Shown here: one piece after another, positions 5,001-21,635 of the stretch | Position numbering within the stretch: the first letter of the stretch is position 1 | How the letters are laid out: the number at the start of each line of letters is the position of its first letter | Virus record (IMG/VR): IMGVR_UViG_3300042890_000256 | Span: 1 to 23,966 of that record | From: a virus | Strand: one strand, 5' to 3' | Length of the DNA: 23,966 nt | The notes under the pieces: generated by a model | What the model was told of the DNA's origin: nothing | Seen by the model: only the letters and a program-made list of their open reading frames with translations | The model's database searches: none | Made by a program: the position numbers and the translations under genes

Positions 5001-5944
5001 CTAAAGAGATTGGATCAAAAGCTTATATCAAACCAGACAGTGCATTTGGAGAACAAACAGCAAGTGCTAGAATAGCTCAAGCTAAACAACAAACTCCTCC
5101 TGCTGATACAATACAAATAGCAGATGTATATGATCCTGAAGCAACAACAACTACAGAAGAAACTACTAAAACAAATTGGTGGGATACAGCATCAACAGTA
5201 GCTAATGCAATACTTCCTAGTATTAGACCAAGTGATGCAGAAGGATTGGATACAGCTCAGTTATATCCAGAGATGTTTGCTATGGCTACAAATCAAGTGG
5301 CTCCTGTGCAAGCACAGACATTCCAACCTGATTTAGGAGTTCCTTATGATATATCATATCAAGATCAATTGAATGCTAACCAAGCAGACTATAGAGCAGC
5401 ACAGAGAATGATGGGTTACAATCCAGCAGCTCAAGCTAATCTAAATGCACAGAAGTATCAAGCTAATCAATCTGTATTAGCTGATCAGTTCAGAGCTAAT
5501 CAAGGTATGAAAGATAAAGTGTATGGTGAGAATAGAAACATGCTTAATCAAGCTAAGCTTACTAACCTAGGTATATTTGATAAGCAATATGAAAGACAAA
5601 CAGAAGCATTAGCTAATACAAAAGCTACAACACAAGCTGCTTTGAATTCTATATCTGACAAGTATGCTAAGAATAAATTAGAGAACAGAGAGTTGAAAAC
5701 ATATGAGAATATGTACAACTATAGATTTGGTCCTAACTTCAGAGCACAGAATATGAATCCTTTAGCGCAGTGGGATACAGATTATAAAGGAGCTTCTGCT
5801 GAAGAACTTGATGCTATGTCAGCTTATAAAAAAGCATTAGCTAAGAGAGAAGCTGCTGAAGAAAAGAAAAAGAAACCTTCATTAGCTGGAGAAAGCATTG
5901 CTAAAAGAAACGGTTCTATCGTAAAATCTTATAAGAATATATAA
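2039..5944 (+). CDS. Large virion protein with glycine zippers and M15-type peptidoglycan peptidase plus wall-binding-like segment
   Basis: A 1301-aa multidomain protein without a single cysteine. Residues 1-41 (KIAGVKSEKEFYKKY ... KKAQTG) form a short conserved N-terminal module. Glycine-rich stretches at 92-125, 213-240 and 351-417 include two glycine-zipper segments, each followed by a Lys/Arg/Ala-rich helix (241-282, 424-450). Residues about 530-610 contain VEVERGEPMVEL and FGNLQIP, typical of a Bacteroidota-phage structural domain. Residues about 758-865 match peptidase M15: SRHSTGEAMD gives zinc ligands H785 and D792, and GHLHIG gives H841/H843. Residues about 960-1012 (DVKKYQDAFN ... 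FGEQTASA) resemble a PG_binding_1 repeat. A Thr/Pro-rich linker lies on each side. The C-terminal 200 residues are Asn/Gln/Ala-rich and helical. Expected role: local cleavage of peptidoglycan peptides during genome entry, with membrane-active segments. It ends in AKRNGSIVKSYKNI. Peptidase call good; virion role inferred. Confidence 0.75.
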   Translation: MKAQILKIAGVKSEKEFYKKYKTEADFMKVHGKEFKKAQTGAAINASQVRQPAFKPLNYQDQFDDVDKMLTGSTAAQRQELALKQQSASKDSGGGGFDIAGLMKLAGGAMQGGGMGDMGGAAAGASSVAAARYGRDIPRAQFGGNYDLGKSPDFSVNMPQGFPKQKSSFSMATPKFNAYDPQGDQAGGKMAQGIFSGAHSVADSPFSAPGDSLSKIGGAVSQLAGPVGSIISGIGQLAGAKKARKAAEQARDVSKVSLKAAESVDVDARRQQSENIAKQREAQMPVNTGEEFFPIFGAGTNILARNGMMLQGGGEIQNTFAPNDIYTDSGYEPLNDSNIKQYAQGGRLPKMLFGGAASGGGTPWGAISGAATGIGQSLMGGQNAGGGLGSTIGSTLGMVGGPIGSAIGGFVGGIAGNLLDTNSKKMKKAQAETERNMQGMANANMAKGIQAQNQSYMKDGGWVSHDWQPQVIASFGGLDEQEVYDYAHEGMDTLRAGGHLRDYTPPSDRAMETYEDGGEIQSYGLGGELQTHWGGGAETISRNPYLPGTGETIMFRGKSHEEYSPNGETGIGVTYGGNPVEVERGEPMVELEEGGTIDPETGEVQKSGVVFGNLQIPNQYIDMLGDKNAKGKKFKNYVADLSKIEEKQNSIIDKSSKELNALDPINSFDKLKLTALQANIQGANMKLKELADKKINAASLQNAINDTAEEHGLVADDLARGKAKVDKKALQEYAEYGKQMFADGGSIIDPLEQLKDLLGSKGFDYKQSSGTRAGSKTKQGKASRHSTGEAMDLTFPKLGKDSYNAMLQDPEIAQFMLDNNLTAIDEYDDDIRKQTGGSGGHLHIGLDKGTAVSDRFRNQAQALYGAKTPATTTDSTTGAPTTTTEVTKPPRMTIAEAIKAGYKLNPKTKQYELIVKGVQTPGTATNEGTALEKIPEGQKRGTSGLYGKVTQEAFEKAKQENPWFDWTGFDPSKKADVKKYQDAFNAKAKEIGSKAYIKPDSAFGEQTASARIAQAKQQTPPADTIQIADVYDPEATTTTEETTKTNWWDTASTVANAILPSIRPSDAEGLDTAQLYPEMFAMATNQVAPVQAQTFQPDLGVPYDISYQDQLNANQADYRAAQRMMGYNPAAQANLNAQKYQANQSVLADQFRANQGMKDKVYGENRNMLNQAKLTNLGIFDKQYERQTEALANTKATTQAALNSISDKYAKNKLENRELKTYENMYNYRFGPNFRAQNMNPLAQWDTDYKGASAEELDAMSAYKKALAKREAAEEKKKKPSLAGESIAKRNGSIVKSYKNI

Positions 5945-5985
5945 CTAAACTCATTATAAAAAATTACTACAAAATGTTATTAAAT

Positions 5986-6016
5986 TTTGATAGTATAATA
6001 ATTTAAATTAAATTTG
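5986..6016 (+). promoter_or_regulatory. Candidate Bacteroidota-type promoter (TTTG-N19-TAnnTTTG)
   Basis: TTTG at 5986-5989 and TAAATTTG at 6009-6016 are separated by exactly 19 bases. This matches the known Bacteroides housekeeping promoter pattern (-33 TTTG, -7 TAnnTTTG) with no mismatch. It lies in the only real intergenic gap of the window, upstream of the endonuclease, cargo and polymerase genes, and predicts a start near 6020-6023. The region is very AT-rich, so chance matches are possible. A TATAAT at 5994-5999 lies in the spacer but has no good -35 partner. Confidence 0.45.
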
Positions 6017-6022
6017 CTAATC

Positions 6023-6038
6023 TACATATTTATATGTA
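6023..6038. repeat. 16-bp palindrome TACATATTTATATGTA at predicted transcription start
   Basis: A 7-bp perfect inverted repeat around a TT centre, lying directly after the promoter candidate and 15 bases before the endonuclease ATG. It could be an operator, a 5' mRNA hairpin or an AT-rich coincidence. A second short palindrome (AATTTAAATT, 6000-6009) overlaps the promoter. Confidence 0.35.
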
Positions 6039-6053
6039 TTAAAATAACAGACT

Positions 6054-6077
6054 ATGGCTTCATGGGCAGGAAAGATT
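6054..6077 (+). repeat. Copy 1 of duplicated gene start (MASWAGKI), fused to the endonuclease
   Basis: The first eight codons of the endonuclease encode MASWAGKI. The downstream gene begins MSSWADKI: six of eight residues are identical, including the Trp. DNA identity is concentrated in ATG, TGGGCA and the AAR-ATW codons, while Ser is TCA here and AGC downstream, so if the two copies share an origin it is not recent. Confidence 0.5.
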
Positions 6078-6674
6078 TACATAACCACAAATAATATAAA
6101 TGGTAAAATTTACATAGGACAGACTATGTCAAAAGATACTAGATATATAGGCAGTGGTGTATATCTAAAACAAGCTATCAAACAGTATGGTAAAAATAAT
6201 TTTACCAATAAAGTGTTAGTTGATAATATAGAATTACCTGAACAGTTAAACTGTTTAGAGATGTTTTATATAAAATTATATGATTCTACTAATACTGAGA
6301 CAGGATATAATCTAAGAATAGGCGGTGAAAACAAAGCGTTTAAGCATACACAAGAATCTTTGGAAAAAATAAGTAAGAGAAGTTTGCAACCAGATAATAT
6401 GGAAAGAATAAAGAACTTACAAAGAATTGTTTCTAATAATAGAATAGGTCAGCATTGCTCTAAACAAAGAAAGTTGAATACTATGTTATCAAAATTTGGA
6501 AAAATTTATGAAATAGAAGTGTATAAAGATAATAAATTATTATATACATGTAACTTTTCAACTGAAGCTGCAGAACTAACAGGTGTGAAACCTGCTGCTA
6601 TACGAAACAACTTGTCGAATCTATCAAAATCTTCAGGTGGATTTATTTTTAAATATAAAAATTTACAATCATGA
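6054..6674 (+). CDS. GIY-YIG homing endonuclease, free-standing
   Basis: A 206-aa DNA endonuclease that would cut a specific site and promote copying of its own gene. The GIY-YIG core is complete: GKIY (6-9), KIYIGQT (18-24), catalytic Arg R30 in the DTRYIGSG segment, catalytic Glu E69 in LEMFYIKLYDS, and GYNL (84-87). Residues about 97-135 resemble a NUMOD3 DNA-binding segment (KHTQESLEKISKRS). Residues about 153-202 resemble a NUMOD1/IENR-type helix-turn-helix recognition module (STEAAELTGVKPAAIRNNL ... GGFIFKY). The family usually begins near 'GKIY', so the leading MASWA is an extra prefix; it closely matches the start of the next gene (MSSWADKI). The 6054 start is needed because the next Met is residue 25, inside the core. 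Its stop overlaps the next start (ATGA, 6671-6674). It has three cysteines (67, 135, 166), unlike the virion genes around it, and is the only gene here ending in TGA. It does not split a visible gene, so it is not intron-borne. Confidence 0.92.
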   Translation: MASWAGKIYITTNNINGKIYIGQTMSKDTRYIGSGVYLKQAIKQYGKNNFTNKVLVDNIELPEQLNCLEMFYIKLYDSTNTETGYNLRIGGENKAFKHTQESLEKISKRSLQPDNMERIKNLQRIVSNNRIGQHCSKQRKLNTMLSKFGKIYEIEVYKDNKLLYTCNFSTEAAELTGVKPAAIRNNLSNLSKSSGGFIFKYKNLQS

Positions 6675-6694
6675 GCAGCTGGGCAGACAAAATA
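6671..6694 (+). repeat. Copy 2 of duplicated gene start (MSSWADKI), start of cargo gene
   Basis: This is the functional start of the 842-aa gene, overlapping the endonuclease stop by four bases. It runs straight into the conserved PTFNPYVQQLPVEAM segment, so this start is chosen with confidence. It pairs with the copy at 6054-6077. Confidence 0.5.
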
Positions 6695-9199
6695 CCAACT
6701 TTCAATCCTTATGTTCAACAATTACCAGTGGAAGCAATGGTAAAGGTTGGTATGGCTAAACAGCAACAGTATGAAGAGGGAGTACAAAAGATACAAACAA
6801 GCATTGACAATGTTGCAGGACTAGATGTTGCCAATGAAGTAGATAAAAAATACTTACAATCTAAACTTAACTCATTAGGTAATAACTTAAAACTGGTGGC
6901 TGCTGGAGATTTTTCTAATTTTCAGTTGGTCAACTCTGTTTCTGGTATGACTAAACAAATTACCAAAGATAAAAACGTTGTTAATGCAGTTAGTTCTACA
7001 GCATGGTTAAGAAAGCAACAAGCTGAAATGGAAAAAGCCATATCAGAAGGAAAGTCTTCACAAGCTAATCAATGGGATTTTTCACAAAAAGCTGATAAGT
7101 ATTTAAACTCTACTGTAGCTGGTGAAAAATTTAATGGAAGATATACTCAATATACGGATGTAAATAAAAAATGGTTAGAAGTTTTTAAAACTTTACATCC
7201 TAGTATAACAGAAGAAGATATGCCATATGTTAAAAATAATGATGGCACTATTAACTATAAACAAACTGCTGCAGCAATGAGTAGAATAAGTAAAGAAACA
7301 GTATCTGAACAACAGATAGCAGATGCTTTACGTTCTAGTTTAACTCCTGATGATTTAAATCAATTATCTATAAATGGTAGATATCAATTTCAAAGTGCTG
7401 GTCCAGAACAACTAAATCAATACTCTGCAAAAAAATATGAAAGTGCAGTTAAAGGATATGATGGTTATATAAAACATTTTGAAGGATTAGCTAATATGAG
7501 CAATGCTGATCCTGAAGTAAAGAAACAAGCATTAGCATCAATTGAGTATTATAAAAAAGCTAAAGAAAATGCTAAGGTAGAGTTAGATGAAGATCTTGAA
7601 TTGGCAATTAGTAATCCTGATGAAGCTAAATCTAATATTTATAAAAATGGAGCTATACAAGAATTTGCACATGCTTATTCTTGGGAAAGTAATAAATTAC
7701 AAGTTTTAGATAATCCTATATTAAATGCTGAGTACAAAGAAAAGAATTATCGTTTAGACGTAGCTAAATATGATTTATCTGTTAAAGCTGAAAAATTTAA
7801 TCAATGGAGAGATATAAAAACTTTAGAAAATTCAGATAGAGATTATGATTTAAAGCTTAAAGAGTTAGTGCTTAAAACTACAGGAAGTCAAAGTGGTGCT
7901 GTTGTATATGGTGGTAAAGCTACAAATATAAAAGATCCATTAACAGCTATGAATAATGATGCTGTAGAGTCTGACGCTGCTGCTAATTCTATTATATCTA
8001 AATATGCAAAAGCAAACAATGTTAATTTTGATACAGCACAGAAAAGATTTGAAGCATATAGAAGAGGGGATAAAACTGCTATTGATAGTAGATGGCAAGG
8101 TGAAGCTCAAAACTGGAAAAAGAATACAACAGAATCTGAAAATATTTTAGAAGCAATTGCTTTAACTAAAAAAGAAGTATATAGTTCTGATGAAGCTAAA
8201 ATAGCTAATGCTAAATTTAAAGCTGATGTTAATGTACTCCCTGCTTTAAAGTATAATATTAATGGTAAAGTGTACTCTTTCACAAAAGAGGAATTAGTTG
8301 AGTATACGAAAAAAACTAAGCCTATGAGTGCAACTTATGGTTTAAATGTTCCTAATAAACCATTAACAGCAAAAGAAAGAATTCTAGATAGTATTTCAAA
8401 ACATGATATCACAGCAGCAAATAATTTAAATAAATATCGTGTTGCTGTTGATAATAACTATAAAAATATTAAAAAATTAGATGACAGAGTTAATGAGCTA
8501 TTGTTAGATAAAAATGGATCATATGTTCCAGCTGTCTATAATATGAATGTATCAAATAAAGAAGGTGCTACTTCTAGAGATAACATGGAAGGACTAGTTG
8601 GGAGTGTTCTTATGAGATTTGGAACAACACTAGGAGGTCAAAAAGGAGGTGGAGAAACTTTAAGTTCTGATAAAGTTAATATAGCAAGAAGCTGGTTAGC
8701 TGGAGAAGGTAAAGATGATATACAGTATAAAAGACTTAAACAAGGTAAGAAACAATATATTGTTATGATGAAAGGTACTGAAGAAATTGTTGTACCAGTA
8801 ACAAATGAAGAAATACCTTTTCTACCTAAAAATGAAAATGAACCTTCTCCTGTAGAAGCTGATGTAATATCATTACAAGAAAGATTCAACGGTACAACAA
8901 ATTATAAACATATTCCTCATAAAGGATATTTTCAACCAGAAGATTTTACAAATGTTAAAAACTTAAATGTAACAGCTGATCTTGAATGGGATGAAAGTAA
9001 TCACTCACTGAATTATATTAACTATAATATTAAACTTCCATCAGGTTGGTATTACATGCAATTAGAAGGATATAAAATGAGTGCTGATGAAGCTGCAAAA
9101 GTTATACAAGGAAATACAGATAATCAGATAAAGCAATTATTCTTAAATAATCCTAAAGTTGGTTCAAAGATTAAAAAAGAAATACTAAACCTTAAATAA
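6671..9199 (+). CDS. Conserved crAss-like phage virion protein, putative capsid cargo protein
   Basis: An 842-aa, mostly helical, Lys/Asn-rich protein with no cysteine, no signal peptide and no obvious membrane segment. The N-terminus (residues 9-75: FNPYVQQLPVEAM, GVQKIQTSIDNVAGLD, LQSKLNSLGNNLKLVAAGDF) is a pattern I recognise from large virion proteins encoded just before the RNA polymerase gene in crAss-like phages. In phages of this order with known structures, proteins from this block are packaged in the capsid as cargo. I see no catalytic motif. The central part (about 250-410) is charged and helical, possibly coiled coil; the C-terminal third contains short beta-rich stretches (KQYIVMMKGTEEIVVPV). 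The start overlaps the endonuclease stop, and seven bases separate its stop from the giant gene, so the two are probably co-translated. The cargo role is inferred from position and family resemblance. Confidence 0.7.
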   Translation: MSSWADKIPTFNPYVQQLPVEAMVKVGMAKQQQYEEGVQKIQTSIDNVAGLDVANEVDKKYLQSKLNSLGNNLKLVAAGDFSNFQLVNSVSGMTKQITKDKNVVNAVSSTAWLRKQQAEMEKAISEGKSSQANQWDFSQKADKYLNSTVAGEKFNGRYTQYTDVNKKWLEVFKTLHPSITEEDMPYVKNNDGTINYKQTAAAMSRISKETVSEQQIADALRSSLTPDDLNQLSINGRYQFQSAGPEQLNQYSAKKYESAVKGYDGYIKHFEGLANMSNADPEVKKQALASIEYYKKAKENAKVELDEDLELAISNPDEAKSNIYKNGAIQEFAHAYSWESNKLQVLDNPILNAEYKEKNYRLDVAKYDLSVKAEKFNQWRDIKTLENSDRDYDLKLKELVLKTTGSQSGAVVYGGKATNIKDPLTAMNNDAVESDAAANSIISKYAKANNVNFDTAQKRFEAYRRGDKTAIDSRWQGEAQNWKKNTTESENILEAIALTKKEVYSSDEAKIANAKFKADVNVLPALKYNINGKVYSFTKEELVEYTKKTKPMSATYGLNVPNKPLTAKERILDSISKHDITAANNLNKYRVAVDNNYKNIKKLDDRVNELLLDKNGSYVPAVYNMNVSNKEGATSRDNMEGLVGSVLMRFGTTLGGQKGGGETLSSDKVNIARSWLAGEGKDDIQYKRLKQGKKQYIVMMKGTEEIVVPVTNEEIPFLPKNENEPSPVEADVISLQERFNGTTNYKHIPHKGYFQPEDFTNVKNLNVTADLEWDESNHSLNYINYNIKLPSGWYYMQLEGYKMSADEAAKVIQGNTDNQIKQLFLNNPKVGSKIKKEILNLK

Positions 9200-9206
9200 T
9201 AAACCT

Positions 9207-12200
9207 ATGCCAGATTTTGATAAAAATCTTCAACCTATAATTGAAAGTACAAAGTTTCCTGGATTTGATTTAAATGTACAAGAAGTAAGACCACAACCTA
9301 TGCCAGATCTTTTATCAGGGTTTGGTGGAGGAACTTCTGATCATACTGAAAAAGATATTTATGACATATTAGGACAAGCTCAAGCAAATTCTAGACAAAA
9401 AGGTAAAGGTGTTAGGGTTACGGATGCTCAATTAGTAGCTAATAAAAGATATGATTTCTTTAATCCTACTATAGAGAACTATGAAGACTTTGCATCTTAT
9501 GGTCAATCTGGTTGGGAGAAAGCTAGGAATGGTGTACTTAAAGGAACTAATCTAGCAGGTACAACAGTACTTGGTGGGTTTGGTATGTTATATGGTATAG
9601 GTAAATCTTTGTTTGGTTCAGAACATAAACTATCTAGTATATGGGATAATGAGATTATGCAAGGGTTAGATAAATGGAATAACAAAGTTGATCAAGAGTA
9701 TCTACCTAATTACTATTCTGAAAAAGAAACAAATGCAGATTGGTATGATAGAGATAACTGGATGACTACTAATTTCTTATTTGATAAAGTTATTAAGAAT
9801 GCTGGATTTGCTGTAGGAGCAGTTTATTCTGGTAACATAGCTAATGGAGTTTTAGGTGCAGCTGGTGCTGTCATAGGGGAATCAGCTATGGCTAGAGCTG
9901 TTGCTATGGAATCTTCTCAAGTGTTCAAAGCATTTGCTCCATTATTAAAAAATACAGCAAGAGCTTTTTCTAAAGCTAAAAATATTGAAGCTTCTGAAGT
10001 ATTAAAAAAAGGTATAACATCTATTGCAGATGTAGTAGACCAATCTTCACAAATAGCAAAAATTGCTAAGATAACAAATCAATTTAATAATTTTAGTGAT
10101 GCTGCAAGAAGAACAGCAATAGCTGCTTATTCATCAGGAGGTGAAGCTACATTTGAAGCATTACAAACTTCTAATGAACATAGAACTAATTTAATTAACA
10201 ACTATAAAAATACACATGGAGGAGTTGCTCCTACAGGAAAAGATTTATCAGATATTGATAATGAAGTTGCTGATGTAGGAAGAGTTTCTTTCTTAGGTAA
10301 CATGGCTTTGTTATCTATAACAGAATATGTACAGCTTCCTAAGTTATTAGGAAGTTCATACGCTGCTGAGAGACAAGCTTCAAATAGTTTATTAGGGAAA
10401 GCAGATGATGTCCTTCTTGACAAAGGAAAATATATAGGTAAAGAAGCTACAACTAAGTTTGGTAAATTATATAACAGAGCTGCAGGAGTAAGTAGATATG
10501 TTTTTGATCCTAAAGAAGGTGGTCAAGAATTAGGACAATATGCTTTACAAGTAGGAACACAAAACTATTATAAAAAATCTAGAGAGACAGGTGCTGCAAA
10601 TATGTGGACTGATGGATTTGTTTATGGATTTGTTGGAACAGATGAAAAAGGAGAAGATGTTGGAGCTTTAACTTCTAAAGCAGGTGCTGAAGGTGGTATA
10701 ATAGGTGCATTCACTGGAGGAGTTATGCAAGCAAGATCAACTTATGCTACAAAGAAACAAGCTAAAACAGGAACTGCTAACTTTTTAAATTTACTTAATG
10801 ATGCACCAACATTTAGAGATGCATTTAAAGATAAATTAGATTCAGCTAACAGAGGTATTAAACTTCAAGAACAACAACAAGATGCTGTACTTAGTGGTGA
10901 TAAATTAGAAGCTATTGATTTAAGATCAGACATGGCTATAAACTATTTATCTGCACGTATTAAGTATGGTAGAATGGATATGGTAAAAGATGATATTGCT
11001 GACTTAAGACAATATAGTATAACAGAAGAAGGACTTGCATCATTAAAAGAACAAGGACTTGCTAATATAAATGATACAAGAGAATCATATCAAAAAAGAC
11101 TTGATAGTTTTGAAACTATGTCTAAGAACATAGAACAAATATACAAAGCAACTGACTTAATGTATAGTGGTGCTATACTAAAAGATGAAAAAGATAATCC
11201 TATAGTGTCTCCTGATGGGAAACAATTAAGAAAATATTCTCCACATGTAATTGATAAAATGGTTTATTCAGCCAGTAAAATTACAGATTATGATCTTCGT
11301 ATACCAGCAGTCAATGCATCACTTATAGCTGCTGGTGTTAATACAATGGATGTATTACAAAGTATTATATTAAACAATAAACCTAGTAGAGAAGCTACAG
11401 ATGCAGCATTAAAACAAATTAATGAGCTTGACATACGCTCTGACTTGAAAGATCAACTTAAAGCAGATCTATCAGATGTTATTGAATTATCTTTACGTAG
11501 AAAACTATTCTTACAAGAGCATGCTGATATAACAAAGAACCCATTAAATTATGAATATAATCCAGAATTTGAATTTGGAGAATCAGAAGAGCTTGATGTT
11601 AAGGTGGAGCAACAAGAGAAAATTAAAGGGAAAAGAAAACCTTTAATCACAGAGAAAGAGTTAGAAGTTAATAAGGAGTATTCTTTAGCAGAACCTTTAA
11701 GAAAAGAAGGAACTACATTACAACTTGCTCCAAAGATTACTGTGCTTTCTCAAACATTAGGCGGTGAGTTTGAGGTGAGACTTCCTAATGGTCAAGTTAA
11801 ATTTCTTACACCAAGCGAATTTAAAGAATATAACATTTCAGATGAAGATAATACTTCTGAAGAAATGGGTGATATTTTAGATAAGGCTATTGACACTGTA
11901 TTAGATAAAGAAGAATTTGCTGATTACAAAGAAGAATTAGAAATAGCTGGTGTTGATAATATTTTTAACAAGAGAGCCTTTATCAATGATCTAGACAATC
12001 AGAAACTTATTGATGCTATTGAAAAAGAATTCAATAAACAAGCTGGAGATCTTATTGCAAAAAAAGAAAAACAGATAGCACAACAAAAACAACTTGTTCA
12101 GAATAAAGAACAAATAATTAAAGAACAAACTGAATTAGAACATGATTCAGGAACCATAGCAACTAGTAACAACATTCCAACAGAACCTTTTAAAGAAGGA

Positions 12201-15200
12201 AAACTTATTGATGCTGAGGCATTGTTTCTTTCTAGTACAACAGAATCTGAAGGAACAGAAGATGCTACAAAATCAGCACAGCATATTAAGAACTCTAGAG
12301 TGTTCTTAAACAACGTTGGTGAGTTTCCTAATAGATCTAATATAAGAGCTATCCTAGTAACACCTAAACAAGTGGCTGGATTAAACCTTAATGGTTTAGT
12401 TCAGATGTCTTATGGAAAAGAATTAACAGATAGTGTTGATTCTATAGAGGATGTTAATAGTATAGATAATGGATTTGTTGCTCAAGTGTTTGTAGAACAA
12501 AACAAAGATGGTTTATTCTATGTGAACAAGGAAGGAAAGATAATTGGTAAAGTTGGAGAAAACTTAGGTGATAATCTTAAAGATGTTATATTCCAAACAA
12601 TGCGTACCACTTCTTTAACATATAGAAATGGTAACCCAAGATATAGATCTGAACAAGAAGCTGAAGCTAGAGCTTATGCAGCAGCATGGAAAGAATATAG
12701 AAAAAAGTTATTCAATGCTGAAGCTACAGAGTTTCCTACATTTGAATTCTTTGTATCAGCTGGTATTCCTATTGAAATAAAATCTGCAGATGGCATTAAA
12801 GAAAAAAATCATGTAGGTGGTATATTAATCAAAGAAGAATTAATAACTAACCAGGCAAACTTAATTGTAGTACCAACTAAAGGAACTATAACTAACAGTA
12901 GAGGAGAGATACAAAAAACTCCTGCTGGTGTACCTGTATTAAAATATGGAGATACATTACAATTCTTAAACAATAGATCTTTCAATAATAGAGAAGCAGA
13001 AGGTATATATGAAACTATTAGAAGACTTGCTAGTCAAACTGTAGAACAATCTAATACAGGACAAGCAATAAGCTTTAATAAACAATTTGCTAAGTTTTTA
13101 CAAAATGTATTGTATTGGAAATCAAAAGCTGATACAGCATCGCCAAATCAAATTGGTATAGATGTTAATACAATGAGTTTAAATCTTGGTAATAAGAGTT
13201 TTCCATTAGCTGAAATAGAGAATTATAAAAAAGAAATAGTTGATCATTTAACAGATGCTAAAACATTTAATAGTATCAATAATAAAACATTAACTGATTT
13301 ACAATCATCTCCATTTGAAGAGTGGTATATAAATCAAGAAGGAAACTTTGTTTCAAGTAAATGGGCAAACTACCAAACATATTTATTATCTAATAAATAT
13401 CCAAGTGGTAAAGCTAGACCAATAGGTGATACACCTCTTTCTACTTCTATAGCTAAGCCTACAGAAGCAGTTCCTTATTCTTTTCAACAAAGATATTCCA
13501 CAATAACACAACCAGATAGTTTTAATGTGCAAGTGGTTGCTCCAGTAGAAAAAGCAAAAGAGGAAGTTGCTGCACCAAAAACATTTGAGTTTAGGGCTGG
13601 TCCTGTAGATTATACATCACAGGAAGATGCTGATGGTAACTTCACTGTTGAGGTGGAAAGAAACGCAACAACAGCTGCTGTAGCTGGTAATAAAGATGAT
13701 TTAGAAAAAGTTATTGGAGCATTAAAGGCTGCTGACAAATTTGATGCTTCTATTCCAAAAGGACAAGAAGAAACATATGTTACAGATTTTATGGCTATGC
13801 AAATAGCTGCGTCATTAAAAGCTGAGAATGTAAAACAAAAAGAATCCCCTGTTATTCCTGATGAAGTTTATGAAGCATTTTCTGAAGAAATTGAAGAGAG
13901 CAGACAACAATCAATAGAACAAGAACAACAAGATATAGAAGCTAAAAAAGCTGATATAGAAAAAAGAAGAGAAGTAGAAATTAATAAACAATCTAGAAAA
14001 AAATCAATGATTGATTTTAAAGCTTTTTCTATAGCTGTTGCTAAATTATCTGAAAAAGGTGGAGGTTCTTTTTCATATAATTTTAGTATTGAAACAACAA
14101 CTCCAAGATTTAGTGATAAATTAAAAAAAGTTGTAAGTATTGAAAGAAATGAGTTTGCAAGACTTGAAAATAAAACAAATAGTTTTACAAAAGAATATTC
14201 TTTAGAAACAGAAGATCAAGTAATCATTAATGATGTTTTAGAAAATTTTAAAAATGATAATGCATTTAGAGAATTTACAAGTGACCCTAAATTAATAGAA
14301 ACTTATTCTTATCCTAAAAAAATTGAAGAAATCAATGCTAAATATGATGCAGAACTAGCTGCTTTAGAAAGTGGTGAAGAAACAAATATAGGTAAAGAGA
14401 TTACAGCTGTTGCACCTTTTAATAAAGGAACCATTACTGGTAAAATAGTAAGTGTAACAGAAAACAAAGCTAAAAAAGGATTGTATTCTATTACATTAGA
14501 TAATGGAGAAAGAGTTTCAGGAAGTTTTAAAGACAATAAATTTACTTGGATAAAAGAAGAAAAAGAAACTCCTCCTAGTGAATTCCCTAGTGGAGATTTT
14601 AGGAGAGTTGGTGCAGATGGTAAAGAAAGAATGACTGATGTTGAACTAACATTATTTAAAGAATGGCATGCAGCTAATGTTCCTAACATTCCTTTTGAAG
14701 TGTTAGATAACATCATCACTACATATGATGGTGAGAAAGCTTGGGGTGTATTTGAAAATGGTGTAGCTAAGTTTGTAAGAGGTGGATTAAGAGCTACAGA
14801 ATATCATGAGGTATTTGAAGGTATATATAAAGGTATGCTATCTACTGAAGAGCAACAAGCTCTTCTTAATGAATTTAAAAATAAAGATGGATTCTTTATA
14901 GATAGACAAACAGGTAAAAAGATTCCTTTCCTTGAAGCTACAGATCTTCAAGCTAAAGAAAGAATAGCAGATGACTTTGCTGATTTTAGAAAAGGAAAAC
15001 TACCAGTTAGATCATTAGGAGAAGCTGTTCGTAATTTCTTTACTAAGTTATTAAACTTCTTTAAATCATTTGTAACTAATCCTTCATTAAAGCAAGAACT
15101 ATTTGATGCCATTGATACAGGTAAGTTTAAACAAAAAACATTATCTGCTGAATCTATTAAATCATCTCCTGAATACAGACCTGTAGAAGACCTAACTGTA

Positions 15201-18200
15201 CAACAAGCTAATAACTTTGTACAAGATATGTTAGCTAGAGCTTCTGGTATATTATTTAGAGATGGAGAAAAAGGATTATTATTTAACCCTGCAGGAATTA
15301 CTGGTACAGAAATGTTTAATAAGGTTGAGGAAATGTATATCAAAGAAGGTAGAAGACAATTACTTTCTGATACAACATGGACACAACTTAAAGAAAGAGT
15401 TAAGGATAAACTAAGAGTACAAGGAATTAACTTCAATGAAGAAGAAGTTCAAGATATAAATAATGATGAAACAAATAAGAATGATTATGTTTCTGATCCA
15501 TTCACTGTAGAAGGTAAGAAAAGTGCTACACCAGCTGTTAAGTTTTTATTATCTACACAAATTCAAAGAGAGTCTACTAATCAAGAAAGTGCTATTACAT
15601 TAAATACACCACCTCCTAGTTATTCTGAAATGAAGGTGAAAGGATTTCCTATTAAAGGATATAAGCTTATGGACTATAGTAGAACATTTGCTACGTTATT
15701 AGATAAACTTTCTAATTCATCAAGTGTTTCTAAATTTACAGATAAGTTATTTAACTTGGCTCAAGATGATGCTAACTATGTAGGTGTGTTTCAAAAAATT
15801 GGTGGTAAAGATAAAGTGATTCCTTTCAAAGACTTTAAAGCTAATGATTGGAGATTGTTTATTGATTTCATGCAAACATTTGCTAGACAAAAACCAGATG
15901 CATTAATTCAATACAAATCTATTGATAGTGTTCATACTGGAGCAGCTAATCTATTTACTGCTAACAGACAAACTGAACAGTCTTGGATGGAGAATATAAA
16001 AACTCTAGCTAAAGGTACAGGGACCATTGTTAATTTCAATAACAAAACTTATACAATAGATCAAGAAGCTCTTCAAGCAATGCGTTTAAGAAAACCTGCA
16101 GACATGATTGCATTCTTAAATGCTATTGGAATAGAGTTTGACCTTGATACATATAACAAATTAAAGTCTTATCAGAAAACAGGTAAGAATGGCTTTAATG
16201 AACAAGTGCAAAGTATATACGCATTCTTTGGTAGTAATAATAATTTAATGAGTGTATCAGGTAAGACACTTGATATAGGTGGACCATTGTCTACACTAGC
16301 TGAATTATATAATAAAGTTAACAACCCTGCACAAGAAAGTACATACTTTGGTGTAGAGAATCAACGTATTGGTTCATTCTCAGAAAATAACACACCATCT
16401 GTATTTGAAAATGAGTTCAATGAGTCAGATACATTAACTGAGTTAAAACAAACAAGAACAGAACTTAATGACACATTCTCTACAGGTAGTCAAGTCTTAA
16501 AAGAAGGTGGATTGTTTTATGATAAAAATGGAAATAAAATAAAAGACTTCAAAGTTTCTTATATACAAGGGGAAGATAATCAAGATACTGATAAAGGAAC
16601 GTCAACATCTAAATTAAAAATAGGTGATAGATATACATTAGAGATTAACCAAAATCTTAATGGTAACTATTATATACTAATGCCTGCTGATGGTTCTACA
16701 GAATGGATGATGAACATAGGTAACAATGTTTCATTTGATTCTATACAAAGTGGATCATACAAAGACATCAACACTATATTCAAAGGATACTTAATGGATG
16801 ATATTAACTTAGCTTTAGATTATAAAACTAGAGAGAAGTTGTATAATGTTACTGATAAATTTGAGAATTTAGGTAAAGCAAAAGAGCTACGTTTCTTTAA
16901 AGATATATTAGCTGATGAACAACTGTCTGCAATTAATAAAATGATTGAGGATAATGAATCATTAGATGAGATTAAAAAATATGTAGATACAAACATAGGT
17001 GCTATTAATAATTCTGTAAAAGAATTTATTGATAATATGAATGCAGGTACAAAAAATATATTAGTAGAGAATAAAAAAATTATAATAGGAGAAAGAACAT
17101 CTAAGTATGTAGATTTAGATGGTAACTTTGCTAAAGCTAATTCATTAAACAAAAATGCTTTGACAGAAAAATCTGTTGATGACATTATTAATTTTGCTAA
17201 TACAAACTACATCATTGCTAATATAGAGTATCACAAAATATTATTTGGTGATCCATATCAATTTGCTGTTAAGAAAGATGGCTCAATAGATCAAACAAAA
17301 CGTATTAAGTCTTGGCTATCTCCTAGAAGAACTACATTTGATTCTCCTGAGTATAATACATTCTTAAATAACAATGCAAACAAAGCTGATGGTATTAAAA
17401 TAGATGAGTATGTATATGATGCTGAAACTAATACCTGGACTGGAGACTTAGGTGGTCACAAATTTAAATCTCATACTAACACTGTAACTATCAAAGATGT
17501 TACTACAGCAGGTAGCTTAGCTAACATCAATAAATTGTTTGGTGATAATAATGAAGCAGATGCTGTATCATGGTTAATGGATACTACTCATAGAGAAGTT
17601 AAACTTAAGAACAAGCAATGGGATTTAGAAGGACAAGAAGAAAAGTTCTTCCAATGGCAAATGGCTTTCACAAGACAAAATCTTCCTGGATATAAGTATT
17701 CAAACACTGCATTAGAAGCTCACGATAAAGCTTTAATGGAAACTGAAAGACCTAAGCATACACTTGAGATATTAAAACCAATTGTTACAGGTAATAAGTT
17801 TAACAAGAATAATTTTGACCAAGTGCTAGATAAGTTCTCTCAGGTGCCTATTTACTACAGTATGGTGAAAGGAACCAATCTTGAGAAACTTTATATTCAA
17901 ATGATGAAACAACAAATAGGATATGCTATTGTTGAATCTGGTAGAAAGGTTGGGGCACAAGAGTTACATGGTCTTTATAATGGAGATGGTTCATTTAATA
18001 ATGAAGCCTTCTCTGAAGAATCAATTGTACAAGTTCCATGGAAAGCTTATGGTATACAAGTAGAAACTGCTAGTAGTGATAACAAATCACAGACACGAGG
18101 ATCTCAGCTTACTAAGTTAGCAAGTATGGATATATTTGATAATGGTGTAGCATCTAGTGTTGAAGCTGAAAAAGAATATAATAGAAATAAGAATATTCTT

Positions 18201-21200
18201 GATCTAATGCACATTAATGGATACAAAGAACTTCTTATTGATTTAGGTATAGAAGATCTTGGTACTGAGTTTGTAATGAAAGATGGTACATCTATATCAG
18301 AAACATTAATGAGAGAAATGTTAAGAAGAGAAGTATCAGATAATTCAAAAGATACTCTTGAACTTAATGAAGAAAATCAATTCATTATTCCATTTGAAGC
18401 ATCCCCTTCTTATACACAGATTAGAAGTATTCTTTATTCTATGATAGATAAAGCTATTGGTTCTCCTAAAATGACTGGAGGAGCACATGTACAGATGCCT
18501 GCAACAATGCTTGAATCTGCTACTAAAGGTAGAAGTATTGTTATGAAGAATGAGAAAGGAATTTGGGAAAAAATAACAAAGGAAAAATATGCTACATTAA
18601 CTGCTGCACAAAAAGCTAATGTTATGCTTACAGATGATACATTGAAATTTTACACTAAGGCTGAGCCATGGTGTGAAGTTTATATGCCTCATTGGTTTAA
18701 AGATAAGTTCAAAGGTAAATTTAAAAATGATAGAGAATTATTAAACTATCTTAATGGTACAACAGAAGGAAAAGCTATTCTTTCTGGTATTGGATTTAGA
18801 ATTCCTACACAAGCACTATCTTCTGTTGAGGTGTTTAGAGTGAAAGGGTTTCTTCCACAATACATGGGAGCAACAGTTGTTGTACCATCAGAAATTACTA
18901 CTAAAGCAGGATCAGATTTTGATATTGATAAATTGAACATGTATCTTAAATCTGTGTATGTAGATAATAAAGGTGACATCAAGTTAGTTAAGTATTTAGA
19001 TTCCGAAGAAGCTACAAAAGAATTCTTTGGTAGAATATATGATGAAACTATTTTAAAAGATATACAAAAGATAAAAGACTCTGATGCATTTAGAAAAGAG
19101 TTATATGATTTTCTTGACCCTACAAAAGTTGTTTCAGAGATAGGAGCTACAAGACAACAAGTTTTCTATAATCAAAATGAAGCATTAATAAATGAGATTA
19201 TATCACAAGCAGATAATGCTGATAAAGCTCCTGTAGATTATATCAATGATCAGATCCAAATGTTAGCTGGTAAAGAAGCTAAGTTAAATGCTAAGTTATT
19301 AAATGATACATTAAGAAATAGATATGTTAAAGAGATGTATAAGAAGTCTCTTGAGAATGAATACTATGATTCTCTTGAGAAACTTATTACACTACCAGAG
19401 AACTTTGATAGACTTATATCTCCTATTGATGATGCAGGATTAAAAAAATTAGCTGGTGAATTAGATGTATTAAGACAAACTAATGAGAATAGTATTCCTA
19501 ATAGAATTCTTAATAGAAACTTCATGACACCATTAAGAAACTCATTTGTAATGGGTAAAAAATGGGTAGGTATTGTAGCTGTTAATATTACAAACCTTTC
19601 ATTGAAACAAAAAAGTCAAGTGTACATTGATCCTGAAAGATTTCAACTTGTATCTTTAGATGATCAAGTGTTCTTAGGAGATGGAACAATAGCTTTAAAC
19701 CATAATACAACTACAGTTAATGGTAAAGAAATGGTATCTTTATCAGGAACTACAGTGAAAGATTCTACAGAGTTAATATCTAATAGACTTTCTGGGTATG
19801 CAACTGCTGTGGTGGATGTAGCTAAAGATGACTTTATTACTAGAATTATACAATCAGATCTTGTTATAGGTACATTCATGTTCCTTGAGAATATAGGTGC
19901 AGGGAGACAAACAGCTTTCTTCTTGAATCAACCAATCATATCTGAATATTTAAAAATTGTAAATGCTAACAATGCATCTAACTTATTTGATAGAAATAAT
20001 ATTACATTAGTTAAAGATAAGTTTGGAGCAAGAGTTAACTTTGTTAAAAACAATATAATAAATCTTGATAACTTAGAAAGTAACATTTCTGATTACTACT
20101 CTGATGTAAAATTTGATGAAGCTAGAAATGCAGAACAGTTAAAAATATTTTCTGAGTTTCTTAAGTATGCTAAAATGGCTGAGTACAATTTTAGTTTTAC
20201 ACAAGCTACTAACTATGATACAAGCAGATTTGGATCTGGGGACATGTATTCTAGAAAAGAATGGAAAACACAGGCAGCTAATGAAACTAATATTATTTTT
20301 TCTGCTAAGAATATACTTAACTCCACTTTCATAGGAACACAAGCAACATTACTTTCTAATTCAATGCAAGCAATGAGTGCTGTATTTAATTTAGAGAGAT
20401 CAGATTTAAGAATGATTACGGAAAATATAATGAAGGTGTATGGTAAGAACAAGTATCTAAGCCAAGATAACTTTATTAAAATTTCTAATAAAGCAAAGAT
20501 GGCTTTCTTAGATTACATTATACAAACTAAAACAGGAGTGAGTGACAGAACATACGCATTACTTGTTAATCCAAAATCATGTGTAGCAAATAAATTAGAG
20601 AAAGCAAAAATAAGATATCCTTTTATAGAGATTCTAAAAAATCTAGAAGTTACTCCTTCTGACAGACTAGATGGTGCTAAAACTATTCAACTTAGAGTGA
20701 ATGATAAATCTGCTGAAAGTGAAAACTTGAATCAGGAAATGATGAGAGAACTGAGAGATTACAATGAAGAAACAAAAGAACTATATGATGATCTTATATC
20801 AGTAGCTATTCTTCAAGGTAGTTATCAATCAGCAGTGTCTATTAAGAATATTATTCCTATTGAGGACTATTCTGCTATCGTGGCACCTGTTGTAGCTTCT
20901 ATATCTTCAACAGAATCATTAAAAGCATTTAGCGAAGGGTTCTTTGAGAGAAATAACTTTGATGATCAATTGATTATGCCTAGAGTGATTCCTTTCTTCA
21001 AAGAAAAAATAGAGCCAGGTGATGATCCATTTTCAGAATATAGAACATATAAATCTGATTCATTTCCTACATTAGAAGGATTAGGCCTTAATACAATGGA
21101 TAGACAAGTTATGCTTATTACAGATAAGTATAATCAAAAAGCTATGAATAGTAATTATGTAGCTGTAAATAAAGTTACAAAACTTAAAGATGGCACACGA

Positions 21201-21635
21201 GTAGATGTAACAACAGGTAACACAGTTACTAAAAAAGACTATGCTGTAAGGCTTTCTAAAGGAGATTATTCTTTAAATGATGTGATAGGGTACAAAAGAG
21301 TTTTACTTACATCAGGAGAACCATTGAGGATATATGACAATCAAGGAAACTTGCAATCTGTATACAAAATGGTTAATCTATATGGTGATGGAGCTAAAGC
21401 TTCAGAATATTACACAACATTTAGACCTTCTGTTATTGAAAATGGTACACTGCAAGTTAAAAGAGAAATGGATGACAGAGATATTGTTAACTATTATGGT
21501 GGTGAAATTGCAGAAGAAACTGTACCTTTACCAACAGAAGTAATAGAAACTGTAAGTGAAAAACCTGAAGGAATATCACAAGAAGAATGGGATGGTTTAT
21601 CTCAAGAAGAAAAAAATAAAATAAACGAATGTTAA
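9207..21635 (+). CDS. Giant virion RNA polymerase fused to membrane-like, coiled-coil and zincin-like regions
   Basis: A 4142-aa protein. Residues 109-137 and 197-226 are Gly/Ala-rich hydrophobic segments, with a shorter one at 493-510. Residues about 820-875 look like an SH3/Tudor-like barrel. Coiled coils lie near 936-980 and 1555-1600, and a KOW/SH3-like strand region near 1738-1785. A zincin-like domain spans about 1835-1960: HEVFE (H1867, E1868, E1871), then ERIADDF (E1918-F1924) and an amphipathic helix; the second His of HExxH is Glu. The polymerase region covers about 2100-4000: GSQLTK (K2970) is a candidate first-barrel lysine region, GFRIPTQ (3196-3202) parallels the beta-prime R.PTLH segment, and DFDID (D3237, D3239, D3241) is the metal-binding triad of crAss-like phage virion RNA polymerases, related to cellular two-barrel polymerases and eukaryotic RNA-dependent polymerases. 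GYATAVVDVAKD (3530-3541) follows. Only three cysteines (3156, 3792, 4142). Likely packaged, injected and used for early transcription. Polymerase call strong; N-terminal roles inferred. Confidence 0.88.
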   Translation: MPDFDKNLQPIIESTKFPGFDLNVQEVRPQPMPDLLSGFGGGTSDHTEKDIYDILGQAQANSRQKGKGVRVTDAQLVANKRYDFFNPTIENYEDFASYGQSGWEKARNGVLKGTNLAGTTVLGGFGMLYGIGKSLFGSEHKLSSIWDNEIMQGLDKWNNKVDQEYLPNYYSEKETNADWYDRDNWMTTNFLFDKVIKNAGFAVGAVYSGNIANGVLGAAGAVIGESAMARAVAMESSQVFKAFAPLLKNTARAFSKAKNIEASEVLKKGITSIADVVDQSSQIAKIAKITNQFNNFSDAARRTAIAAYSSGGEATFEALQTSNEHRTNLINNYKNTHGGVAPTGKDLSDIDNEVADVGRVSFLGNMALLSITEYVQLPKLLGSSYAAERQASNSLLGKADDVLLDKGKYIGKEATTKFGKLYNRAAGVSRYVFDPKEGGQELGQYALQVGTQNYYKKSRETGAANMWTDGFVYGFVGTDEKGEDVGALTSKAGAEGGIIGAFTGGVMQARSTYATKKQAKTGTANFLNLLNDAPTFRDAFKDKLDSANRGIKLQEQQQDAVLSGDKLEAIDLRSDMAINYLSARIKYGRMDMVKDDIADLRQYSITEEGLASLKEQGLANINDTRESYQKRLDSFETMSKNIEQIYKATDLMYSGAILKDEKDNPIVSPDGKQLRKYSPHVIDKMVYSASKITDYDLRIPAVNASLIAAGVNTMDVLQSIILNNKPSREATDAALKQINELDIRSDLKDQLKADLSDVIELSLRRKLFLQEHADITKNPLNYEYNPEFEFGESEELDVKVEQQEKIKGKRKPLITEKELEVNKEYSLAEPLRKEGTTLQLAPKITVLSQTLGGEFEVRLPNGQVKFLTPSEFKEYNISDEDNTSEEMGDILDKAIDTVLDKEEFADYKEELEIAGVDNIFNKRAFINDLDNQKLIDAIEKEFNKQAGDLIAKKEKQIAQQKQLVQNKEQIIKEQTELEHDSGTIATSNNIPTEPFKEGKLIDAEALFLSSTTESEGTEDATKSAQHIKNSRVFLNNVGEFPNRSNIRAILVTPKQVAGLNLNGLVQMSYGKELTDSVDSIEDVNSIDNGFVAQVFVEQNKDGLFYVNKEGKIIGKVGENLGDNLKDVIFQTMRTTSLTYRNGNPRYRSEQEAEARAYAAAWKEYRKKLFNAEATEFPTFEFFVSAGIPIEIKSADGIKEKNHVGGILIKEELITNQANLIVVPTKGTITNSRGEIQKTPAGVPVLKYGDTLQFLNNRSFNNREAEGIYETIRRLASQTVEQSNTGQAISFNKQFAKFLQNVLYWKSKADTASPNQIGIDVNTMSLNLGNKSFPLAEIENYKKEIVDHLTDAKTFNSINNKTLTDLQSSPFEEWYINQEGNFVSSKWANYQTYLLSNKYPSGKARPIGDTPLSTSIAKPTEAVPYSFQQRYSTITQPDSFNVQVVAPVEKAKEEVAAPKTFEFRAGPVDYTSQEDADGNFTVEVERNATTAAVAGNKDDLEKVIGALKAADKFDASIPKGQEETYVTDFMAMQIAASLKAENVKQKESPVIPDEVYEAFSEEIEESRQQSIEQEQQDIEAKKADIEKRREVEINKQSRKKSMIDFKAFSIAVAKLSEKGGGSFSYNFSIETTTPRFSDKLKKVVSIERNEFARLENKTNSFTKEYSLETEDQVIINDVLENFKNDNAFREFTSDPKLIETYSYPKKIEEINAKYDAELAALESGEETNIGKEITAVAPFNKGTITGKIVSVTENKAKKGLYSITLDNGERVSGSFKDNKFTWIKEEKETPPSEFPSGDFRRVGADGKERMTDVELTLFKEWHAANVPNIPFEVLDNIITTYDGEKAWGVFENGVAKFVRGGLRATEYHEVFEGIYKGMLSTEEQQALLNEFKNKDGFFIDRQTGKKIPFLEATDLQAKERIADDFADFRKGKLPVRSLGEAVRNFFTKLLNFFKSFVTNPSLKQELFDAIDTGKFKQKTLSAESIKSSPEYRPVEDLTVQQANNFVQDMLARASGILFRDGEKGLLFNPAGITGTEMFNKVEEMYIKEGRRQLLSDTTWTQLKERVKDKLRVQGINFNEEEVQDINNDETNKNDYVSDPFTVEGKKSATPAVKFLLSTQIQRESTNQESAITLNTPPPSYSEMKVKGFPIKGYKLMDYSRTFATLLDKLSNSSSVSKFTDKLFNLAQDDANYVGVFQKIGGKDKVIPFKDFKANDWRLFIDFMQTFARQKPDALIQYKSIDSVHTGAANLFTANRQTEQSWMENIKTLAKGTGTIVNFNNKTYTIDQEALQAMRLRKPADMIAFLNAIGIEFDLDTYNKLKSYQKTGKNGFNEQVQSIYAFFGSNNNLMSVSGKTLDIGGPLSTLAELYNKVNNPAQESTYFGVENQRIGSFSENNTPSVFENEFNESDTLTELKQTRTELNDTFSTGSQVLKEGGLFYDKNGNKIKDFKVSYIQGEDNQDTDKGTSTSKLKIGDRYTLEINQNLNGNYYILMPADGSTEWMMNIGNNVSFDSIQSGSYKDINTIFKGYLMDDINLALDYKTREKLYNVTDKFENLGKAKELRFFKDILADEQLSAINKMIEDNESLDEIKKYVDTNIGAINNSVKEFIDNMNAGTKNILVENKKIIIGERTSKYVDLDGNFAKANSLNKNALTEKSVDDIINFANTNYIIANIEYHKILFGDPYQFAVKKDGSIDQTKRIKSWLSPRRTTFDSPEYNTFLNNNANKADGIKIDEYVYDAETNTWTGDLGGHKFKSHTNTVTIKDVTTAGSLANINKLFGDNNEADAVSWLMDTTHREVKLKNKQWDLEGQEEKFFQWQMAFTRQNLPGYKYSNTALEAHDKALMETERPKHTLEILKPIVTGNKFNKNNFDQVLDKFSQVPIYYSMVKGTNLEKLYIQMMKQQIGYAIVESGRKVGAQELHGLYNGDGSFNNEAFSEESIVQVPWKAYGIQVETASSDNKSQTRGSQLTKLASMDIFDNGVASSVEAEKEYNRNKNILDLMHINGYKELLIDLGIEDLGTEFVMKDGTSISETLMREMLRREVSDNSKDTLELNEENQFIIPFEASPSYTQIRSILYSMIDKAIGSPKMTGGAHVQMPATMLESATKGRSIVMKNEKGIWEKITKEKYATLTAAQKANVMLTDDTLKFYTKAEPWCEVYMPHWFKDKFKGKFKNDRELLNYLNGTTEGKAILSGIGFRIPTQALSSVEVFRVKGFLPQYMGATVVVPSEITTKAGSDFDIDKLNMYLKSVYVDNKGDIKLVKYLDSEEATKEFFGRIYDETILKDIQKIKDSDAFRKELYDFLDPTKVVSEIGATRQQVFYNQNEALINEIISQADNADKAPVDYINDQIQMLAGKEAKLNAKLLNDTLRNRYVKEMYKKSLENEYYDSLEKLITLPENFDRLISPIDDAGLKKLAGELDVLRQTNENSIPNRILNRNFMTPLRNSFVMGKKWVGIVAVNITNLSLKQKSQVYIDPERFQLVSLDDQVFLGDGTIALNHNTTTVNGKEMVSLSGTTVKDSTELISNRLSGYATAVVDVAKDDFITRIIQSDLVIGTFMFLENIGAGRQTAFFLNQPIISEYLKIVNANNASNLFDRNNITLVKDKFGARVNFVKNNIINLDNLESNISDYYSDVKFDEARNAEQLKIFSEFLKYAKMAEYNFSFTQATNYDTSRFGSGDMYSRKEWKTQAANETNIIFSAKNILNSTFIGTQATLLSNSMQAMSAVFNLERSDLRMITENIMKVYGKNKYLSQDNFIKISNKAKMAFLDYIIQTKTGVSDRTYALLVNPKSCVANKLEKAKIRYPFIEILKNLEVTPSDRLDGAKTIQLRVNDKSAESENLNQEMMRELRDYNEETKELYDDLISVAILQGSYQSAVSIKNIIPIEDYSAIVAPVVASISSTESLKAFSEGFFERNNFDDQLIMPRVIPFFKEKIEPGDDPFSEYRTYKSDSFPTLEGLGLNTMDRQVMLITDKYNQKAMNSNYVAVNKVTKLKDGTRVDVTTGNTVTKKDYAVRLSKGDYSLNDVIGYKRVLLTSGEPLRIYDNQGNLQSVYKMVNLYGDGAKASEYYTTFRPSVIENGTLQVKREMDDRDIVNYYGGEIAEETVPLPTEVIETVSEKPEGISQEEWDGLSQEEKNKINEC

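Follow-up and report, generated by a model that had tools for sequence, protein, structure and literature searches.

A putative GIY-YIG homing endonuclease within the first codons of a phage gene, followed by a recoded replacement start for that gene

The stretch of viral DNA analysed here (23,966 nucleotides, IMG/VR record IMGVR_UViG_3300042890_000256; hereafter the window) contains two overlapping open reading frames (ORFs) whose N termini resemble each other (Table 1). This resemblance, MASWAGKI against MSSWADKI, had been noticed in a first-pass annotation made from the sequence alone, and we confirmed it in both translated frames. The upstream ORF contains a GIY-YIG catalytic domain: it matches Pfam PF01541 above the cut-off (E 5.2e-5; 23.9 bits against 22.6), carries the motif GKIYITTNNINGKIYIG, and matches PHROG 314, annotated as 'homing endonuclease', with an E value of 6e-26. 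The first residues of the GIY-YIG core are GKIY, from residue 6, and MASWA is therefore an extra prefix. The endonuclease stop codon TGA and the ATG of the downstream gene overlap as ATGA.

The downstream, or target, gene encodes an 842-aa protein with no match in Pfam, PHROG or PDB, which leaves the earlier label of a 'cargo' gene as an unsupported guess from position. Against the phage collection, blastn and tblastn searches with this gene each returned one weak record. It is followed by a single ORF of 4142 aa (9207–21635), an unusual length, that is related to crAss-like RNA polymerases. A tblastn search with 1000 aa of this neighbour matched 125 phage records; the matches listed (15 of the 125) are crAss-like by name or record, together with Cellulophaga phage phi14:2, at 24–27% identity. 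Judged by this related polymerase, the window phage looks crAss-like (Crassvirales), with the record representing a 24-kb fragment.

Table 1. Features of the endonuclease locus, in window coordinates.
Feature	Position	Strand	Basis
Tract of L009-like sequence flanking the element, approximate limits; wider surroundings L003-like	5354..6795	+	informative sites
Intergenic leader, native to the target gene and taken over by the endonuclease	5945..6053	+	last 100 nt identical to empty loci L009 and L011
Box TAAATTTG, fitting TAnnTTTG	6009..6016	+	motif match
GIY-YIG homing endonuclease, 206 aa, starts MASWAGKIY	6054..6674	+	Pfam PF01541, PHROG 314, motif GKIYITTNNINGKIYIG
Captured native target start ATGGCTTCATGGGCAG, now the endonuclease start	6054..6069	+	16/16 bases identical to L009 and L011
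TGGGCAG, left copy of a short repeat at the insert border	6063..6069	+	read from sequence
Target gene, 842 aa, starts MSSWADKIP	6671..9199	+	adjoins the 4142-aa RNA polymerase-related ORF
Re-supplied, recoded target start ATG AGC AGC TGG GCA GAC	6671..6688	+	11/18 bases identical to L011, then 100 of the next 102
Right copy of TGGGCAG; the target gene follows the empty-site sequence from this point on (codon 6 GAC for GAT)	6680..6686	+	

Relatives of the window phage are either occupied or empty at this site. Searching IMG/VR with the 842-aa protein yielded 12 loci (L001–L012), three of which (L001, L002 and L006) carry the same endonuclease. At L003–L005 and L007–L011 the endonuclease is absent, and the gene starts with ATGGCTTCATGG behind the same intergenic DNA, giving the N terminus MASWADKI (MASWQDKI in L007 and L008); a distant relative, L012, also lacks the endonuclease, and its gene starts MAGFSEN. 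A 20-base motif spanning leader and start retrieved 12 IMG/VR contigs, comprising 11 from the loci above plus L097, of which 3 are occupied and 9, including L097, are empty; several of these contigs are near-copies of one another. The endonuclease is thus seen to be present or absent at a fixed site in related genomes. The check suggested with the first-pass annotation, that endonuclease-free relatives should begin MASWA directly behind the same intergenic DNA, came out as predicted apart from MASWQ in L007 and L008, and the junctions are clean.

We aligned the leader with those of L003, L007, L009 and L011. Contiguous identity to the window extends 121 bases upstream in L009 and 148 bases in L011, and no dissimilar upstream region was found in the endonuclease-free relatives. 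The insertion point lies 16 nt inside the native coding sequence, and thus not between genes. Compared as proteins, prefix and target N terminus give a p of about 0.03 against unrelated pairs, which is modest because the prefix is short. MASWA is nevertheless the native target start, because the 16 start bases and the upstream DNA are identical in endonuclease-free L009 and L011. These identities uphold the earlier proposals that MASWA is a captured prefix and that the endonuclease kept the target's start codon and upstream signals. Among the GIY-YIG loci compared, a start of the form M[AS]SW was found in copies of the window element and in no unrelated enzyme. The leader includes a TAnnTTTG box, which we take to be a Bacteroidota −7 type promoter element. 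In all 11 loci examined, such a box lies 22–46 nt 5' of the first start, with 0.09 expected per 90 nt; neither the window nor L016, a second occupied locus described below, has one in the 150 nt 5' of the re-supplied start.

The start of the target gene has been rewritten. At its 5' end the occupied gene reads ATGAGCAGCTGGGCAGAC where empty loci read ATGGCTTCATGGGCAGAT. The window has a short rewritten stretch of 18 nt, and in the alignment with L011 the codon change is confined to this start, with near-identity beyond. The first-pass annotation had correctly described a replacement start, supplied through the ATGA overlap, that keeps the target frame whole, and had taken the differing serine codons as a sign of an old event or of selection at the amino-acid level. 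It had overlooked the contrast between the recoded start and the nearly unchanged DNA beyond, the surrounding tract of other ancestry and the recurrence at other genes. The altered start is not simply old, since the DNA directly after it matches L011 at 100 of 102 bases.

A second lineage, L016, is occupied at the same site by an endonuclease 52% identical to that of the window, with its own replacement start; its empty relatives are L089–L091 and L094. The L016 leader matches that of empty L089 at 98 of 100 bases, and the target genes of the two differ at 3 of 18 bases in the first six codons and then match at 159 of 162. The L016 prefix, MPDFNGT, is of unclear likeness to the native MASFTDT (p 0.98), which counts against universal in-frame capture of the target start.

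The flanks of the element are mosaic. Informative sites are L009-like rather than L003-like in the 700 nt to the left (20 vs 2) and in the 125 nt to the right (16 vs 1), and turn L003-like further out, both on the left to 1200 nt (4 vs 27) and on the right to 300 nt (4 vs 9). The window target protein as a whole is 93% identical to that of L003. This L009-like ancestry tract of about 830 nt is compatible with co-conversion around a cut site. Ordinary recombination could also leave it, since these phages are mosaic generally: about 300 nt into the target gene, DNA identity in L007, L009 and L011 has dropped to roughly 50%.

Taken together, we consider it highly probable (roughly 0.86) that a free-standing GIY-YIG homing endonuclease inserted, with neither intron nor intein, in the first codons of the 842-aa gene and came with a recoded replacement of the gene's 5' end. 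Three parts of this arrangement are visible in the DNA: the endonuclease stands behind the target's leader and has the target's start codon and first five codons as its N terminus; a replacement start with changed codons lies behind the element, overlapping its stop, so that the target frame is whole; and the element sits in the tract of different ancestry. The remaining steps we infer. The enzyme would cut the empty site near the target's first codons in a co-infecting phage, and repair would copy the endonuclease together with the replacement start. Insertion and recoding would shield the occupied copy from cutting, and recoding would prevent recombination between the two starts and hence loss of the element. 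Translation of the target would now depend on ribosomes re-initiating once they have finished the endonuclease. The element would, in effect, bring its own rescue of the gene that it invades.

We looked for the same arrangement at other GIY-YIG loci by comparing the 300 nt 5' of each GIY-YIG core with the N terminus of the downstream gene, using pairs of unrelated loci as the null. Among 93 non-redundant loci, limited to those found with the window endonuclease or with the window and L016 endonucleases, 12 reached p≤0.01 (0.93 expected) and 10 reached p≤0.001 (0.09 expected); one source search of this set, taken alone, gave a single locus among 30 at p≤0.01, where 0.3 was expected. In a larger set, 29 of 186 loci reached p≤0.01, representing 24 endonuclease clusters and 11 downstream families, a biased count that is not a frequency because the set includes loci fetched with trait-bearing endonucleases. 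Within these 29, L171 is chance-like or doubtful, L371 and L372 are weak, and L188 (glutaredoxin) may be two neighbouring genes. A Pfam scan of 10 downstream proteins identified thymidylate synthase, nicotinate phosphoribosyltransferase (two), IF-3, a PD-(D/E)XK nuclease, DUF6267 and glutaredoxin, and gave no match for three. About 10–48 codons are repeated or recoded in these other cases.

An endonuclease-like query from a huge phage (L127:5997–6614, HNH-like by eye, no Pfam match) retrieved 39 loci with 17 cores, of which 10 were testable and none positive. Further endonuclease-like frames lie directly behind a captured-start case in the same huge phage (L127:5214–6617), one with weak NUMOD matches and the other with no Pfam match. 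When we tested for the C-terminal arrangement, 7 of 117 loci scored at least 40, a score reached by 0.4% of null pairs, and several of the seven are 5' case loci. At L131, L132 and L076, resembling fragments stand up- and downstream of the endonuclease, possibly reflecting C-terminal replacement.

The clearest set of cases at another gene involves a 174-aa gene of huge phages, for which 80 of 202 loci were kept (L220–L299). In 65 of the 80, the motif AWATATTTAT, perhaps a late promoter, lies no more than 40 nt from where the gene starts. Of the 15 loci that lack it there, eight have an endonuclease or the remnant of one (L220, L221, L237, L268, L274, L280, L286 and L289), and the other seven are without any endonuclease sign (L224, L226, L231, L247, L262, L294 and L299). 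In six of seven endonuclease or remnant loci examined, AWATATTTAT instead precedes the captured start; the exception, L268, has GAATATTTAT. The endonuclease is fused to the captured start in L220, L268 and L289 and follows it as a separate frame in L280 and L286, and the prefix in L274 is weak. In L237 the captured start runs into the terminal portion of an endonuclease (1141–1279) and a replacement start follows at 1280; read from this arrangement, the locus is the scar of a lost endonuclease.

Cultured crAss-like gut phages provide three further occupied and empty pairs, each with a rewritten 5' end of 30–120 nt and then near-identity. In crAss001, gp41 precedes the HU/IHF-like gene gp42, and PhiCrAssBcn17 is without gp41; gp42 matches Bcn17 at 60 of 87 aligned bases in the changed 5' part and then at 458 of 459. 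For the crAss001 gp37/gp38 pair compared with Bcn1, gp38 matches at 19 of 30 bases and then at 610 of 615. In 'tikkala', a GIY-YIG gene precedes the tail tubular gene, which matches Bcn1 at 54 of 84 bases and then at 215 of 216 over the stretch compared. The native start is kept at the head of gp37 (ATGCTA) and of the tikkala gene (ATGGTTAA). We found no captured prefix on crAss001 gp41, which matches NUMOD-type models and no GIY-YIG model in Pfam; this gp41 form is present in full in six records. Across occupied and empty pairs, recoding followed directly by near-identical DNA is clear in four of five, the fifth being L016.

In PhiCrAssBcn14 an endonuclease likewise precedes this HU gene, whose start is about as native as that of other isolates. 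The change in this phage (L431, 1056–1189), relative to Bcn1 and Bcn19, is at the 3' end of the gene upstream of the endonuclease, which mirrors the 5' cases and has the polarity of fungal elements considered below. Occupied isolates (PhiCrAssBcn20, 22, 23 and 25) and empty ones (e.g. PhiCrAssBcn1 and 17) have Bacteroides intestinalis DSM 108646 as their recorded host, which would make crosses possible. Variable endonucleases have been reported for the crAssBcn isolates, and in the part of that report consulted we found nothing on replaced gene starts (PMC10354031).

Seven of the eight T4 endonuclease genes tested (segF, segA, mobB, mobD, segE, mobE and segG) have no prefix (scores 19–27); the scoring did not include segB, segC, segD and the pseudogene mobA. 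The eighth, mobC, scored 40 against nrdG, and its start, MNYDRIY, is like that of nrdG. We did not count this pair as a captured start, because Mob enzymes share MNYxxIY-like starts and the exact identity with two mobC-less phages is just 11 bases. Nor does nrdG have a replaced start: nt 1–60 are E. coli-like (7 vs 1), nt 61–300 are Klebsiella-phage-like (73 vs 2) and the remainder is again E. coli-like (50 vs 0). This mosaic (L436, 42446–42916), with nt 61–300 like Klebsiella phage KMI12 and ends like E. coli T4-like phages, represents an internal imported stretch. As the import is internal, T4 is left out of the argument, which never rested on it. The T4 record also notes alt.-1 and alt.-2 (L441, 23065–25502) as a duplicated first part of alt with no endonuclease between, perhaps an old scar.

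Among alternatives, the one that survives best, though improbable, is that the 5' end of the gene was simply duplicated in tandem and that an endonuclease gene happened to land between the copies, with no function connecting the two. Duplicated N termini are visible at many loci, and the old alt duplication in T4 has no endonuclease gene. Fresh duplicates would share codons, however, whereas four of the five pairs are recoded at the start and near-identical beyond, and fragments are commoner at endonuclease loci than mismatched pairs predict.

A self-splicing intron, in which translation would run in frame from exon 1 into the endonuclease, is a slightly poorer candidate. Read by eye, the two TGGGCAG copies are 617 nt apart, and excising the DNA between them would restore MASWADKIP in a joined frame matching the empty gene. 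Yet no Rfam family was detected at E≤1 in 5900–7000 of the window, and none at the Rfam gathering level in seven other loci. Endonuclease ORF fills nearly the whole insert, so that an intron core would not fit; the target gene is preceded by a complete start that includes an ATG; and the 10–48 repeated or recoded codons elsewhere would be needless for splicing. The endonuclease thus appears free-standing, and an intron around it is unlikely.

Ancestral occupancy, with precise deletion of the element in the empty phages, has about the same small likelihood as the intron. Empty sites occur in the more diverse phages (L003, L007, L009, L011 and L097), which have one native start in common, and imprecise loss looks different, as in L237 with its captured start and endonuclease end. 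Chance or protein-level convergence of the prefix, which the protein-only p of about 0.03 and the shared Mob starts (perhaps including the mobC/nrdG likeness) would allow, is negligible and refuted for the window by the 16 start bases and the 121 and 148 upstream bases of native DNA.

Returning to insertion with a replacement start, we think it somewhat favoured that this extends beyond the window. Free-standing phage endonucleases would then commonly enter coding sequence by a natural form of home-and-rescue. They would seize the expression signals of a gene and supply it with a 5' end that is recoded, resists cleavage and also prevents their excision. The candidates span at least 10 gene families and include cultured crAss001-like phages and scars left after decay, as in L237.

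Homing endonucleases are thought to limit harm by residing in introns, inteins and intergenic gaps. If the proposal is true, entering a gene start while bringing a recoded replacement would be a further route. It would explain phage endonucleases that overlap the start of the next gene, rewritten 5' ends and resistance to precise loss, and would offer a natural, testable counterpart, in culture too, to engineered home-and-rescue drives. Integrative elements such as SXT in prfC also give the gene they enter a new start in place of its 5' end; that entry is integrase-based site-specific recombination, unlike homing. In the open-licence literature, as represented by titles and the starts of abstracts, we found no report on phages that describes captured starts together with replacement 5' ends, and earlier notice is possible.

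The T4 seg and mob genes are likewise described as homing without introns, using host promoters, overlapping neighbouring genes and undergoing co-conversion (PMC2988022), where homing and co-conversion of the window element are our proposal. In contrast, the T4 enzymes are intergenic and cleave hundreds to thousands of bp away, and the consulted portion of that review contains no captured start or replacement 5' end that we could find (PMC2988022). It does name MobE in nrdA of Aeromonas phage Aeh1 (PMC2988022), and a nucleotide reductase gene that an endonuclease gene divides into two parts is mentioned elsewhere (PMC10448857). Like the window element, these lie within coding sequence; that gene stays in two pieces, whereas the window gene is made whole by its replacement start (PMC2988022, PMC10448857).

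The closest natural likeness is to the mobile ORFs (mORFs) of fungal mitochondria, as far as the excerpt consulted describes them: in Allomyces atp6 and in Glomus atp6, atp9, cox2 and nad3, an ORF for a free-standing endonuclease lies at one end of the gene and brings a replacement for the end it displaces, and the two Glomus atp6 ends are 63.5% identical in DNA and 91% in protein (PMC3630166). The displaced gene end is replaced in the window as well. However, the fungal replacements concern the C-terminal end, with a LAGLIDADG example, whereas the window case is N-terminal, GIY-YIG and phage-borne and takes the leader and start (PMC3630166). The HomeR home-and-rescue drive, in the sections consulted, similarly combines homing into a gene, a re-coded rescue and use of the native promoter (PMC7968924). 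The parallel is one of analogy only, HomeR being a man-made CRISPR construct at the 3' end of an insect gene and the window element a natural phage element at a 5' end (PMC7968924). We read the window arrangement as a natural counterpart of home-and-rescue and a mirror image of the fungal mORFs.
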